Source: Flavobacteriales bacterium
Lineage (GTDB): Bacteria; Bacteroidota; Bacteroidia; Flavobacteriales_E; Vicingaceae
Assembly: GCA_013359255.1 (NCBI GenBank)
Contig: JABWCF010000001.1
Location: 176,982-240,981 of the forward strand
Direction: 5' to 3'
DNA: 64,000 bases
Shown: one piece after another, positions 19,199 to 51,925 of the stretch
How the letters are laid out: each line of letters starts with the position of its first letter
Position numbering within the stretch: position 1 is the stretch's first letter
Position numbers and translations under genes: made by a program
Notes under the pieces: generated by a model
The model's database searches: none
Told to the model about the DNA's origin: nothing
What the model saw: only the letters and a program-made list of their open reading frames with translations

Positions 19199-19284
19199 CG
19201 TTATTGCGAATGTAGTGAAGCAAACTTTTTAATGCGGAGTAAAAAGCAGGGGATTGCTTCGGTCGTTTCTCCCTCGCAATTACG
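19199..19284. repeat. Interspersed imperfect inverted repeat (CG(T/A)ATTGCGA...GAAGCAA type)
   Basis: Left arm CGTTATTGCGAATGTAGTGAAGCAA (19199-19223) and right arm TTGCTTCGGTCGTTTCTCCCTCGCAATTACG (19253-19284) are inverted relative to each other. Confidence 0.55.
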
Positions 19285-19349
19285 GGGAAGGGTATTACTT
19301 CAAGTGTTTTGAGATGCCAAAAACAGATTGAGAAGAGAAAAAGGTTTAT

Positions 19350-19545
19350 TTCGTTTCCCATTGTTCTCGATACGCTCTGCTACTCGAACGGACAAAGAAG
19401 GAGCTAAAACAATAAAAAAAATGTCACTTCGAGTAGCGAGGAACGAGCGTATCGAGAAGAACAGTTTTTATCTCAACCCCTTTGTCTGTTCTAGATACGG
19501 TTTAATTCCGTTAGCTCTGCATTAAACCTACTAGAACGGACAAAA
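19350..19545. repeat. Cluster of TGTC(A/C)(C/G)TTCGAGTAGC...GTATCGAGAA interspersed repeats in both orientations
   Basis: Inverted copy about 19360-19400 (TTCTCGATACGCTCTGCTACTCGAACGGACA), direct copy 19422-19462 (TGTCACTTCGAGTAGCGAGGAACGAGCGTATCGAGAAG), degenerate copy about 19485-19545. Confidence 0.65.
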
Positions 19546-45043: not shown

Positions 45044-48000
45044 ATGAAGAGAAATATTTTATTCTTTTTCCTGATTCTTTTATGCTCATATTCTCTTGTA
45101 TACGCACAACATGTACGTTTTCGGAGAATATCTACAGATGAAGGATTGATGAACAGCATGGTAAATGCCATAACGCAGGATAGTGCTGGGTTTATGTGGT
45201 TTGCTTGTTCTAACGGATTGTGCCGGTATGATGGAAAGAATTTTGTATACTTTCAGCACAATCCCACAGATACCTCTACCATAAACGAAGGGCTTGTACG
45301 TACTCTTTTTTACGATACCGAAGGGTATATGTGGGCAGGAGGATTAGGCTGTGGCTTGGTTAACATTAATTGCAGAACTCTTCAATTACAAAAACTAAGC
45401 AGGCTCAATGCCGATTCATCTATTTTTTTACCTAGCAACTCGGTAACTTCTATAAAGCCTTATGGTAATTCCTTGTATATTTCTACGCTAGATGCAGGAA
45501 TATGGGAATACAATAAAAAGAATAAAAAATTTTCGAAATTGTTTGGTGCCAATCAATCGTCATTCGTGCCGTACAGAAATATTTTTATCACCCCTAATGG
45601 GGTAATGTGGATAGCTACCAGTACAGAGGGAGTGTGGAAATATAATTTAAAAAACAAAGAACTTAAAAAGTTTAATGAATCAAATACTTCCGGAGAAAAC
45701 ATTGTTTATAATAAAGTACGGAACGTATTTGTAGATAAAGAAGGATGGGTATGGTTAAGTTTTTGGGAAAAAGGAAATGGTGTGTTAATGACAGGAAAAG
45801 AACATTTTATTTCCAATGTAGAGAACCACCCTTTTTTCGGTAAACTGCTTAAAACGGGATTGGTATCGCAATTTATGCAAGATAGAGAAAACAATATCTG
45901 GCTTTGTACTGCCGAAGAAGGAGCTGTTCGTTTTAATAAGAAAAAACAAAAAACAAAAAGTTATACCAATAGTTTAAGCAATTTAGAATCGATTGGCAAC
46001 AACACAGTTCTATGTGCATACAGCGACAACACAGGAGCTTTGTGGTTTGGAACGTGGAAAGGAGGGGCACAAGTAGTAAATCCCAAATTATCGCGTTTTG
46101 GTTTGTATATAGCAGAAGATGCGAATTCTCATGCCCTTCATAATTCAACCGTAACATGTTTTACACAATTAAATTCCGGAAATATTTTGATGGGAACGGG
46201 AGATGGGGTTTCGGAATTTAATCCTATGAAAAATACTTTTTCACGTTTCGATTTCGATTCGGTAAACAATATATACCATTTGCAAAATGCACATATATAT
46301 TCTATTGCCGAAGATAAAAACGAAAATGTTTGGGTGGCTGTGTTTGGCTCAGGGATATATGTTTTCAATAAAAAAAGAGAATTAATTAAACGGTATATAG
46401 ATGGAGAAAAAGGAGGATTATCTTCTCAAATTATTCAAAAAATTTTAACTACAAAATCTAACAAAATATATGCTGCATCTAGTTTTAATGGATTGAATAT
46501 TTACGATTCTCAGGCTGATAAATTTCATTTTTTAACACATTCAGAGGCAGATTCTTTATCGCTTAGCAGCAACGAAATTCTTTGTTTGTTAGAAGCTAAA
46601 AACGAAAATATTTGGATTGGTACAAAAGGTGGAGGGCTAAATCTTTTTAATCCGAAAACCATCAGTTTTAAAAGATTTTTTAGCGATAAAAAGAATCCAA
46701 AAAGTTTGCTAAGCAATCATGTAAATACACTCTGTTACGATAAGCTGGGTGGCTTATGGGTTGGAACCAATGTAGGCATTTGCCGCTATTCCGAAACAGA
46801 TCATTCGTTTACAAACTATTCGCATTATGATGAATTAATTCAGTCGGAAATTTATTCTATTAACGAAGACGAAAAGGGCAACTTATGGATCATTACTTCT
46901 AATGGGTTGGTATGTTTTAATCCGCTCAATGGAAAAATAAAACAATACAATAAAAACAATGGAATTCAGGGAGGCGAGTCAATTCAAAATGCGAACTTAG
47001 TTACAAAAGATAACCGAATTTGCACGGGAGGTCTTTCTGGTTTTAATATTTTTCGCCCTTCAGAAATAAGCGATATTCCTAATAATGCAAACATTGTCTT
47101 TACAGGTTTCTCAGTATTAAATAAACCATTCAACACAGAAAAAGATGCGGTCTTTATAAACCAATTAACCCTTAATTACAAAGATTACTTCTTCTCTGTA
47201 AATTTTTCGCATCTTGATTTTTCGGATCCCTCTCAGAATACATACGCATACAAACTAGAAGGGTTTAATACCGAATGGGTTTATATTGGCACTACACAAT
47301 CGGTTACCTTTACCAATTTAAATCCGGGCAGCTATATACTGAAGATAAAAGCGGCCAACAGTATGGGTGAGTGGAGTATCCGGCAAGCCCTTTTAAAAAT
47401 TACAATTATTCCTCCTTTTTGGAAAACATGGTGGTTTTACTCACTATGTATCCTAGCTTCAATTTTATTGCTTTACCTGTTTGTACGGTATCGAGAAAAG
47501 AAATTACAACACGAAAAATTAAAACTAGAACATAAAGTAGAAGAAAGAACCAAAGAATTACAATACGAAAAACTAAAGGTAGAAGAAGCCAATAAAGATA
47601 TTAAAGACAGTATAACCTACGCCAAAAGAATACAAGATGCCATATTGCCATCGGCCGAATTTATGGATACACATATGCCGGAGCATTTTGTATTATATAA
47701 CCCGAAAGACATTATTAGTGGAGATTTTTATTGGATGGATAAATTAGGAAACACCTTGTTTTTTGCTGCAGCCGATTGTACCGGACATGGAGTGCCAGGA
47801 GCCATGGTAAGTGTAGTATGCAGCAATGCCCTCAATAAAACAGTGGTAGAATTGGGAATAAGTGAGCCGGGTTGTATTTTAGATATGGTTCGAAAAATAG
47901 TAGTTCAAACTTTCGAAAAGAGCGATAAAAATGTAAAAGACGGAATGGATATTTCTCTTTGTAAACTCGATATTTCAGAAAAAAATTTCTGTACCTTGCA

Positions 48001-48358
48001 ATGGGCTGGAGCCAATAACCCCCTTTGGATTATACGTAATGCCAATCATAATGAAATTTGCGAAATTAAACCCGATAAACAACCCATAGGAAAAGTAGAA
48101 AATCCAACGTCTTTTACTACACATACTCTAGAGCTACATAAAGGAGATGCAATATTTATATTTACCGATGGTTTTGCCGACCAATTTGGCGGTGAAAAAG
48201 GTAAAAAATTTATGTATAAATCATTAAAAAATTTACTCTTATCTTTTCAAGATAAAGGCATGAATGAACAAAAACGAATATTAAAACAAGAATTCGATAA
48301 TTGGAAAGGAAGTAACGAACAGGTAGATGATGTGTGTGTGATTGGAGTGAGAGTGTAA
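45044..48358 (+). CDS. Two-component-regulator-propeller / Y_Y_Y sensor fused to SpoIIE-type PP2C phosphatase
   Basis: Signal peptide; FRRISTDEGLMNSMVNAITQDSAGFMWFACSNGLCRYDG propeller blades; Y_Y_Y (YAYKLEGFNTEWVYIG...); TM; SGDFYWMDKLGNTLFFAAADCTGHGVPGAMVSVVCSNAL, IFIFTDGFADQFGGEKGKKF. Confidence 0.93.
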   Translation: MKRNILFFFLILLCSYSLVYAQHVRFRRISTDEGLMNSMVNAITQDSAGFMWFACSNGLCRYDGKNFVYFQHNPTDTSTINEGLVRTLFYDTEGYMWAGGLGCGLVNINCRTLQLQKLSRLNADSSIFLPSNSVTSIKPYGNSLYISTLDAGIWEYNKKNKKFSKLFGANQSSFVPYRNIFITPNGVMWIATSTEGVWKYNLKNKELKKFNESNTSGENIVYNKVRNVFVDKEGWVWLSFWEKGNGVLMTGKEHFISNVENHPFFGKLLKTGLVSQFMQDRENNIWLCTAEEGAVRFNKKKQKTKSYTNSLSNLESIGNNTVLCAYSDNTGALWFGTWKGGAQVVNPKLSRFGLYIAEDANSHALHNSTVTCFTQLNSGNILMGTGDGVSEFNPMKNTFSRFDFDSVNNIYHLQNAHIYSIAEDKNENVWVAVFGSGIYVFNKKRELIKRYIDGEKGGLSSQIIQKILTTKSNKIYAASSFNGLNIYDSQADKFHFLTHSEADSLSLSSNEILCLLEAKNENIWIGTKGGGLNLFNPKTISFKRFFSDKKNPKSLLSNHVNTLCYDKLGGLWVGTNVGICRYSETDHSFTNYSHYDELIQSEIYSINEDEKGNLWIITSNGLVCFNPLNGKIKQYNKNNGIQGGESIQNANLVTKDNRICTGGLSGFNIFRPSEISDIPNNANIVFTGFSVLNKPFNTEKDAVFINQLTLNYKDYFFSVNFSHLDFSDPSQNTYAYKLEGFNTEWVYIGTTQSVTFTNLNPGSYILKIKAANSMGEWSIRQALLKITIIPPFWKTWWFYSLCILASILLLYLFVRYREKKLQHEKLKLEHKVEERTKELQYEKLKVEEANKDIKDSITYAKRIQDAILPSAEFMDTHMPEHFVLYNPKDIISGDFYWMDKLGNTLFFAAADCTGHGVPGAMVSVVCSNALNKTVVELGISEPGCILDMVRKIVVQTFEKSDKNVKDGMDISLCKLDISEKNFCTLQWAGANNPLWIIRNANHNEICEIKPDKQPIGKVENPTSFTTHTLELHKGDAIFIFTDGFADQFGGEKGKKFMYKSLKNLLLSFQDKGMNEQKRILKQEFDNWKGSNEQVDDVCVIGVRV

Positions 48359-48436: not shown

Positions 48437-50758
48437 ATGAAAACTAAAATAGTGGTCCTTATATTCTTTTTTATTGGTAAATACTCACATTCAGCAAATA
48501 TCGATTCCTTAAAAACAATTTTACATAAATTAAAGAATGATACAACTAAAGTAAATTTATTAATAAATATATCGGAAGAATATTGGACTATAAACGTTGA
48601 TTCTTCTCTAAAGTATTCTACCGAGGCAAGTGTATTATCTTCTACGTTATCTTTTAATAAAGGTAAGGCGAATGCATTATCCTCACAAAGTAGCGCCTAT
48701 TATTATCAGGGACATTTAGATAGTGCCATAAGTATTGGTACTAGAGCCTTATCAATAAAAATTAAACTAGGAAATAAGAAATTAATAGGCAAATCATATA
48801 ATAATATAGCTATGTTTTATGACGAGACAGGTAATTACGACTCTGCTATTACTTTATACAATAAGGCTTTATCTGTTTTTGAAGAAATTAAAGATAAAGA
48901 AGGGACGGCCTCTACCTATGGAAACATGGGCGTAATGTATCGTTATATGGGTAATTATGTTATTGCCATTGATTATTTTTTGAAAACTTTACGCATATTA
49001 GAAAACATAGGGAATAAAAAGGGTGTAGCAACAACCTGTACCAACTTAGGGGTTTTATATGCCAATCAAAAAGAGTATAAAGAAGCACTAAAATATTTTA
49101 AAAATACCTTGCAGTTATATGAAGAGTTGAAAGATACAGATGGTATCAGAAAAGCTCATCAAAATTTAGGGAGCCTATTTTATTTTACCCAGAATTTAGA
49201 CACGGCCTTATATCATTTTAAAATAGCAGAAAAAATGCTTTTAAAAACTACGCAAGCTTTTAACTTAGTTTCGCTTTATGATAATATGGGTAGTGTTTAT
49301 AAATTGAAAAAACAAAATAAAACAGCTCTCTCATTTTATTTAAAGGCAATGAATATAGCCGACAGTTTGGGAAACGAAAATAGTAAGTCTTCTTTGTATT
49401 GTAATTTAGGTCTCTTACATATCGAAATGGGAAAATATAACGATGCTATTTCATACTGTTTAAAGGAATATGAATTAGCTGTTAAAATGAAAAATGTTAG
49501 TAACATCAGCTCAGCATGCAATTGTTTGTATTCTGCATACGATAAGAAAGGTAATTTTCCTTTAGCATTTAAATATTATAAAGAATATATTCTATATAGA
49601 GATAGTATATTAAATGAAAGTAACACCAAAGAAATTACCCAAAAGCAGATGGAATATGCATATGAAAAACAACAACTTGCTGATAGTATTAAAAGGGAGG
49701 CAATATTTAAAATGAATGAATATACACATAAACAAGATATTAAGAATCAGAAAATATACTCTTATACCGCTTTGGTAGGATTGCTGATAATGGCTGTTTT
49801 TGTATTTGTTCTGTACAGAGGAAATATTCAGAAAAGAAAAAACAATATTCAACTTGAAGAAAAAAATAAAATTATTAGTTATCAAAAGTTGGTAGTAGAA
49901 GAAAAACACAAAGAAATCACCGACAGCATTAACTATGCCGAGCGGATACAACGCAGCTTTTTGGCTACTACAGAAATGTTAGATAAAAACCTTGGTGTAA
50001 CTTCGAGTAACCCAAAGTATGATGGCGTATCGAAAAGTGAACGCAATTACTTTGTCTTTTTCCGCCCTAAAGACGTAGTAAGTGGCGATTTTTACTGGGC
50101 AGCCGAATTAAATAACGGAAACTTTGCATACTGTTGTGCCGATAGCACCGGGCATGGTGTACCCGGAGCCATTATGAGTATTTTAAATATTTCGAGTTTA
50201 GAAAAATCCATAGAAACCCAAACCGAACCACACCAAATACTTGCAGAAACTAGAAGAATCATCATAAACCGATTAAAAAAAGACGGCAGCCTGGAGGGTG
50301 GCAAAGATGGTATGGATTGCAGTTTGTTGGTATTAGATAAAGAAAGAAAAAAACTTTCTTTTGCCTTAGCCAATAATCCTGTTTTTATTGTACGCTCTGT
50401 TGCTTCGAGTAGCCTGAAGTATGATGGTACATCGAGAAGCGATGCCACTGAACTCATCGAATTTAAACCTGATAAAATGCCCGTTGGCAAGCACGAAAAA
50501 GATACCGAACCTTTTAATCTACACACTATAAATGTGCAACTGGGCGATGTTATTTACACTCTTACTGATGGATTTTCCGATCAGTTTGGCGGCAACAAAG
50601 ACAAAAAGTTCATGATTAAAAATGTAAAAGAATTGTTTTTACAAATAGCCCATTTACCCATGTCCGAACAAGAACAAAAATTAGCCGATGAATTTGAGAA
50701 ATGGAAAGGAGCTAATCATCAGGTAGATGATGTGTGTATCATAGGCGTGAGAATATAG
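48437..50758 (+). CDS. TPR-repeat sensor fused to SpoIIE-type PP2C phosphatase
   Basis: TPRs (YNNIAMFYDETGNYDSAITLYNKALSVFEEI etc.), TM, coiled coil, SGDFYWAAELNNGNFAYCCADSTGHGVPGAIMSILN, TLTDGFSDQFGGNKDKKF. Confidence 0.93.
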   Translation: MKTKIVVLIFFFIGKYSHSANIDSLKTILHKLKNDTTKVNLLINISEEYWTINVDSSLKYSTEASVLSSTLSFNKGKANALSSQSSAYYYQGHLDSAISIGTRALSIKIKLGNKKLIGKSYNNIAMFYDETGNYDSAITLYNKALSVFEEIKDKEGTASTYGNMGVMYRYMGNYVIAIDYFLKTLRILENIGNKKGVATTCTNLGVLYANQKEYKEALKYFKNTLQLYEELKDTDGIRKAHQNLGSLFYFTQNLDTALYHFKIAEKMLLKTTQAFNLVSLYDNMGSVYKLKKQNKTALSFYLKAMNIADSLGNENSKSSLYCNLGLLHIEMGKYNDAISYCLKEYELAVKMKNVSNISSACNCLYSAYDKKGNFPLAFKYYKEYILYRDSILNESNTKEITQKQMEYAYEKQQLADSIKREAIFKMNEYTHKQDIKNQKIYSYTALVGLLIMAVFVFVLYRGNIQKRKNNIQLEEKNKIISYQKLVVEEKHKEITDSINYAERIQRSFLATTEMLDKNLGVTSSNPKYDGVSKSERNYFVFFRPKDVVSGDFYWAAELNNGNFAYCCADSTGHGVPGAIMSILNISSLEKSIETQTEPHQILAETRRIIINRLKKDGSLEGGKDGMDCSLLVLDKERKKLSFALANNPVFIVRSVASSSLKYDGTSRSDATELIEFKPDKMPVGKHEKDTEPFNLHTINVQLGDVIYTLTDGFSDQFGGNKDKKFMIKNVKELFLQIAHLPMSEQEQKLADEFEKWKGANHQVDDVCIIGVRI
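49997..50041 (+). repeat. Interspersed-repeat-like insertion inside the TPR-SpoIIE CDS, copy 1
   Basis: GTAACTTCGAGTAACCCAAAGTATGATGGCGTATCGAAAAGTGAA encodes VTSSNPKYDGVSKSE, lacking in the paralog at 45044-48358. Confidence 0.7.
50399..50449 (+). repeat. Interspersed-repeat-like insertion inside the TPR-SpoIIE CDS, copy 2
   Basis: GTTGCTTCGAGTAGCCTGAAGTATGATGGTACATCGAGAAGCGATGCC encodes VASSSLKYDGTSRSDA, same frame as copy 1, lacking in the paralog. Confidence 0.7.
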
Positions 50759-51796: not shown

Positions 51797-51925
51797 TGTC
51801 AATTCGAGTGAATTTCACGATTGAAATGAGTGAAATTTGTATCGAGAATACAAATTTTCAATACATAAAGGTGTCGGTTCGAGTTTTTTCTGAAAGTAAA
51901 AGTATTGAGAATACAAACCTTTTTT
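51797..51925. repeat. Two degenerate copies of the TTCGAGT...(G)TAT(C/T)GAGAA interspersed repeat
   Basis: TGTCAATTCGAGTGAATTTCACG...TTTGTATCGAGAATACAAA and TGTCGGTTCGAGTTTTTTCTGAAAGTAAAAGTATTGAGAATACAAA. Confidence 0.6.

Follow-up and report, generated by a model that had tools for sequence, protein, structure and literature searches.

Short palindromic repeats lie in frame in two loops of a SpoIIE-type phosphatase from a Flavobacteriales bacterium

The window (the whole stretch of DNA that was analysed, 64,000 nt) contains two adjacent forward-strand genes with SpoIIE domains, the second of which carries two short in-frame blocks that match an interspersed repeat. The features concerned are listed here.

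45044-48358, forward strand: adjacent paralog with a SpoIIE domain and no insert at site 1 or site 2 (matches the domain query at 49% identity)
48437-50758, forward strand: host gene, 773 aa, TPR repeats and a C-terminal SpoIIE/PP2C-type phosphatase domain (Pfam TPR and SpoIIE)
49994-50041, forward strand: in-frame insert 1 (site 1), GVTSSNPKYDGVSKSE, repeat core 50000-50037
50402-50449, forward strand: in-frame insert 2 (site 2, the hotspot loop), ASSSLKYDGTSRSDAT, repeat core 50402-50439
19426-19459, forward strand: intergenic TTCGAG-family member with a different centre (GCGAGGAACGAGC)
19364-19388, reverse strand: intergenic member with a short centre (GCAGAGC), in the opposite orientation to the copy at 19426
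51803-51849, forward strand: looser relative between genes, downstream of the 773-aa gene, TTCGAGTG-AATTTCAC..GAAATTT-GTATCGAGAAT, read from the sequence

The SpoIIE domain of the host gene was recognised by Pfam (PF07228, E 6.9e-19), and the product qualifies as a SpoIIE/PP2C phosphatase by domain and by fold. In an HMM alignment, the net gain was 16 codons for each insert (49994-50041 and 50402-50449). A preliminary description of this DNA had reported two segments 402 nt apart, identical at 32 of 41 positions, read in the same frame and missing from the neighbouring paralog. Both figures were reproduced (the cores start at 50000 and 50402), the two segments fall in one frame of the TPR and SpoIIE gene, and inspection of 45044-48358 found neither peptide there. 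When the full window was scanned with the 38-nt intergenic consensus, insert 1 was identical at 33 of 38 positions and insert 2 at 31 of 38; these were the only two places in the 64,000 nt with at least 26 of 38, and the best matches in 20 shuffled windows were 20-23.

The element is an imperfectly palindromic short interspersed repeat of ~38 bp with the core CTTCGAG-centre-TATCGAGAAG, and intergenic copies of this TTCGAG family reach ~50 bp with the ends CTGTCA...TGACAG. Folding compared to shuffles gave z values of -3.8 for the extended intergenic form, -0.9 for the 38-nt core and +0.5 for other centres, so that only the extended form folded better than its shuffles. The exact subfamily (ACTTCGAGTAGCCCGAAGCATGAGGG..TATCGAGAAG) is intergenic at C1:118459, C7:453 and C18:206213 of the window's genome, with six more intergenic copies in the genome of a sister species of the same genus. 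Eight copies within 3 mismatches are present in the window's genome, three intergenic and five in SpoIIE genes, and the coding copy in a paralog at C31:13059 is identical to the C18 intergenic copy over 41 nt. The preliminary description would have been refuted had no other genomic copies existed, which is not the case given those on C1, C7 and C18. Its comparison of the segments to the intergenic repeat at 19422-19462 was right as to family but not as to subfamily: that copy belongs to a sister subfamily with another centre, and the exact match lies elsewhere in the genome. An AAATTTC-centred copy related to the 51803-51849 element is present at C2:169559. By eye, window positions 19200-19290, next to the TTCGAG-family copies, hold a degenerate pair of CGTC-type repeats (gttattgcga...gattgcttcggtcg...cgcaattacg). 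Near-identical TTCGAG-family copies with a GCGAGGAATGAGC centre stand at the starts of contigs C11, C13 and C21 of genome G000 (positions ~50-140), which suggests that a longer repeat broke the assembly there.

Five of the six reading frames of the element are open. All coding copies of the TTCGAG family that were found, including one in a leucyl-tRNA synthetase (LeuRS) gene, are read from the same strand in the T-S-S register. The peptide of L213 is also in this register; it was printed in another because the scan had matched an upstream TTCGAA. Since independent insertions are few (about five to eight), the shared register is only suggestive, and inserts of the CGTC type are read in two frames or more. 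The earlier proposal of selection for one open, soluble frame fits the five open frames, but selection itself remains unproven.

Both inserts are gaps in the alignment to the solved SiaA-PP2C domain 6k4e. An AlphaFold model built from 28 sequences had a mean pLDDT of 83.5, and its best fold match was again 6k4e (TM 0.72 by query). In the model the two insert blocks are coil between regular elements (block pLDDT 53-54), site 1 between the long helix and the first strand and site 2 in a hairpin with strands 159-165 and 180-186 on either side. Mapping the sites on a PP2C structure, a check that had been proposed at the outset, thus placed both at gaps and in low-confidence coil.

Both inserts are common to three paralogs, the window gene on C4 and two genes on C31, and are therefore not private to the 48437-50758 gene; two genes of the sister species likewise carry both. 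In the relatives L049, L050 and L062 (66-69% identity) both sites are empty, reading LKEYFVFF and IVRNNELLEFKPDK. Outside the clade, orthologs have empty sites (L049, L050, L062 and L087) or unrelated inserts, so that the same peptides as ancestral loops in distant orthologs, the other outcome that would have overturned the initial reading, were not seen. SpoIIE-domain matches numbered 3-31 per genome in the 15 genomes searched. Five genomes (G000, G001, G005, G018 and G029) have about 30 such matches each, a large paralog family.

Insertions into related SpoIIE domains are concentrated at one place. A first profile survey of 162 domains found insertions of at least 8 residues in 40 at site 2 and in 14 at site 1, with few elsewhere; a second survey with stricter coverage (151 domains) found insertions of at least 8 aa at site 2 in 48. 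Half of these long loops (24 of 48) matched one of five palindromic repeat families (TTCGAG 8, CGTC type 6, G-rich 6, GTGGCTGAG 3 and CACTGAGCG 1), compared to 0.9% of random windows, a contrast that is somewhat generous because the motifs were composed after the loops had been seen. The other 24 loops contained no recognisable repeat. Parsimony mapping onto a FastTree phylogeny gave 15 changes in whether site 2 holds a repeat; for the TTCGAG family alone the numbers were 3 (site 1) and 4 (site 2). For several site-2 inserts of other families, further copies lie between genes of the genome concerned; for the inserts of L143, L130, L079 and L093 no copy besides the coding one was found. The insert of L053 is of the CGTC type and begins CGTC-AT. 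Unrelated repeat families have thus been captured repeatedly by a single loop in this large family of paralogous phosphatases.

Because queries taken from SpoIIE inserts would be biased, copies in other genes were sought with intergenic copies of three families in two genomes. The 62 places classified were 49 intergenic, 7 in SpoIIE genes and 6 in other ORFs, a count inside and outside coding sequence of the kind that had been proposed as a check. The two genomes were chosen for having SpoIIE inserts, so the SpoIIE enrichment is ascertained and is not a blind estimate. The LeuRS gene, from another genome, carries a TTCGAG-family element at a gap relative to solved LeuRS; further coding hosts include TsaB, RecG and MetH, and the N-termini of MurG and MurD (gene names by eye from the sequence) and signal peptides also host repeats. 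Repeat-coded peptides (LPSGGSGWASA and SLPFGEGRGGAFA) end the apparent signal peptides of exported proteins in L234 and L252 (G023) and L272 (G024). RmlB (L318) and TsaB (L298) are partial cases: the loop that the repeat occupies is variable and has gained ~6-10 residues. AroA (L284) was not counted as a host, its alignment showing a replacement with no added length. A peptide-motif scan of 464 kb of the window's genome found no coding host beyond the SpoIIE copy. The multi-family hotspot at site 2 and the invaded housekeeping genes go beyond the preliminary description.

In two of these hosts the insertion includes a domain. A DUF559 endonuclease domain lies in frame inside RecG in two genomes (L271/L333 in G024, L305 in G029) and inside MetH in L329 (G023); in L280 (G024) the corresponding site of MetH holds a shortened remnant. 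The MetH protein with the domain has 148 extra residues between its matches to residues 756 and 772 of the methionine synthase chain 9ssp. In both RecG and MetH the domain is bounded by repeat-coded peptides of the G-rich family, which also fill SpoIIE loops. At L335 (G023:C181) a DUF559 domain follows an 8-amino-7-oxononanoate synthase-like protein in the same open frame. No report of in-frame DUF559 insertion was found in the literature, most subscription papers not being covered. The G-rich family has the look of a DUF559-bearing element that has lost its interior, and DUF559 is a possible mobiliser for that family. It was rejected as a mobiliser of the TTCGAG family, the domain being absent from the window's genome and the sister genome. 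The window's genome has two Y1_Tnp genes with no TTCGAG-family copies within 1.5 kb, so no link to a Y1 transposase was obtained. Neither a target-site duplication nor an autonomous parent was established for the window's family. The claim of a small mobile repeat invading proteins accordingly stands as regards in-frame invasion by a repeat; mobility is only inferred and no mobiliser was found.

We consider it very probable that the two segments are repeat copies that entered a pair of surface loops in frame, in an ancestral phosphatase of the SpoIIE type, and then spread among paralogs by gene duplication or conversion. The homology to the repeat, the empty sites, the shared register and the coil location are all demonstrated. 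That the segments are instead serine/lysine-rich linkers resembling a repeat by chance can hardly be entertained; loops of this kind are commonly rich in Ser and Lys and differ in length, and half of the long site-2 loops contain no repeat, but the match is at the nucleotide level (31-38 of 38, compared to at most 23 in shuffles) and includes the coding copy that is identical to an intergenic one over 41 nt. A single insertion at site 1 whose peptide was later copied to site 2 by within-gene conversion would account for the agreement of the two coding copies within the host gene (30 of 38 positions) and for the filling of both sites in all three paralogs and the sister species. We regard it as unlikely: L077 and L093 have site 1 filled and site 2 empty, in another paralog group (G024, G029) site 2 holds a separate copy with a different centre, and the two sites of the window gene, at 30 of 38, are no closer to each other than site 2 is to intergenic copies (31-32 of 38).

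Separate from how the inserts arose is why they persist. Repeat capture might diversify loops that contact partners and so tune the specificity of paralogous phosphatases, and the concentration of inserts in a single PP2C loop, the repeated gain of different families there and the share of SpoIIE genes among coding copies in the intergenic-query sample (7 of 13) would suit such adaptive retention. We are doubtful of it, since paralog redundancy and a permissive hairpin account for the same pattern, housekeeping genes carry inserts too, the insert peptides vary between orthologs and no selection test stands behind the claim. A contribution of the inserts to phosphatase specificity is possible, with no assay data. 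Returning to insertion of mobile repeat copies, we infer that the element transposed as DNA by means of a mobiliser not identified here, and that an insert would have survived only if its net length was a multiple of three, its frame was hydrophilic and without stops (TSSSPKHEGVSRS) and the receiving loop was exposed to solvent. SpoIIE loops would be over-represented because many paralogs per genome lower the cost of an insertion. The insert peptides are predicted from DNA, without expression data, and the genomes are partly MAGs.

The closest known systems are Rickettsia palindromic elements (RPEs), GTAG/CGTC REPs and MITEs. RPEs are described as ~150 bp palindromic elements in Rickettsia (PMC10969869). 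Like them, the window's repeats are palindromic and interspersed, lie in frame in unrelated protein genes (SpoIIE and LeuRS, with RecG, MetH and TsaB for another family), favour one frame with a conserved peptide and have intergenic copies in the same genome. Size, family and host do not agree: the core is ~38-50 bp, the host belongs to the Bacteroidota, the sequence is outside the RPE families and insertions are concentrated on SpoIIE loops. The analogy to RPEs drawn at the outset is therefore borne out in the way the repeats behave but not as membership of the RPE family. GTAG/CGTC REPs are small and palindromic and have been described inside ORFs, repair genes among them, in several species and genera, with different REPs at about the same recB site in two Xanthomonas species and CGTC repeats noted in Bacteroidetes (BMC Genomics 2013, PMC3733652); the main text of that paper does not mention SpoIIE or report a loop hotspot common to several families. 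The window's family resembles these REPs in being small, palindromic and present in ORFs, and the L053 insert is of their CGTC type; it differs in having no constant GTAG or CGTC terminal tag (e.g. CTTCGAGTGCCGACG lacks GTAG) and no Y1 transposase association of the GTAG type. Its short non-autonomous form recalls MITEs, as does the resemblance of the G-rich family to a shortened DUF559-bearing element. Intergenic copies of the window's family have CTGTCA/TGACAG-like ends, but neither transposase-matched terminal repeats nor target-site duplications were shown. We found no report of in-frame invasion by palindromic repeats in Bacteroidota, in a literature search that did not cover most subscription papers.

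Protein invasion by palindromic repeats was previously known mainly from Rickettsia and some Proteobacteria; what is new here is its occurrence in uncultured Flavobacteriales-type bacteria. A wider proposal, which we find arguable without quite being persuaded, is that in this bacterial family a number of palindromic repeats, among them at least one family derived by internal deletion from a DUF559 element, regularly spread in frame through proteins, the essential enzymes RecG and MetH keeping an unspliced endonuclease domain and the SpoIIE loops acting as a repeat trap. If true, such elements would form a class that is mobile, resides in proteins and is maintained without being spliced out. 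Because many inserts exist alongside empty-site paralogs, whether they are tolerated junk or raw material for protein function is directly testable. The results extend small-palindrome protein invasion to uncultured Bacteroidota, in which essential enzymes are also invaded.
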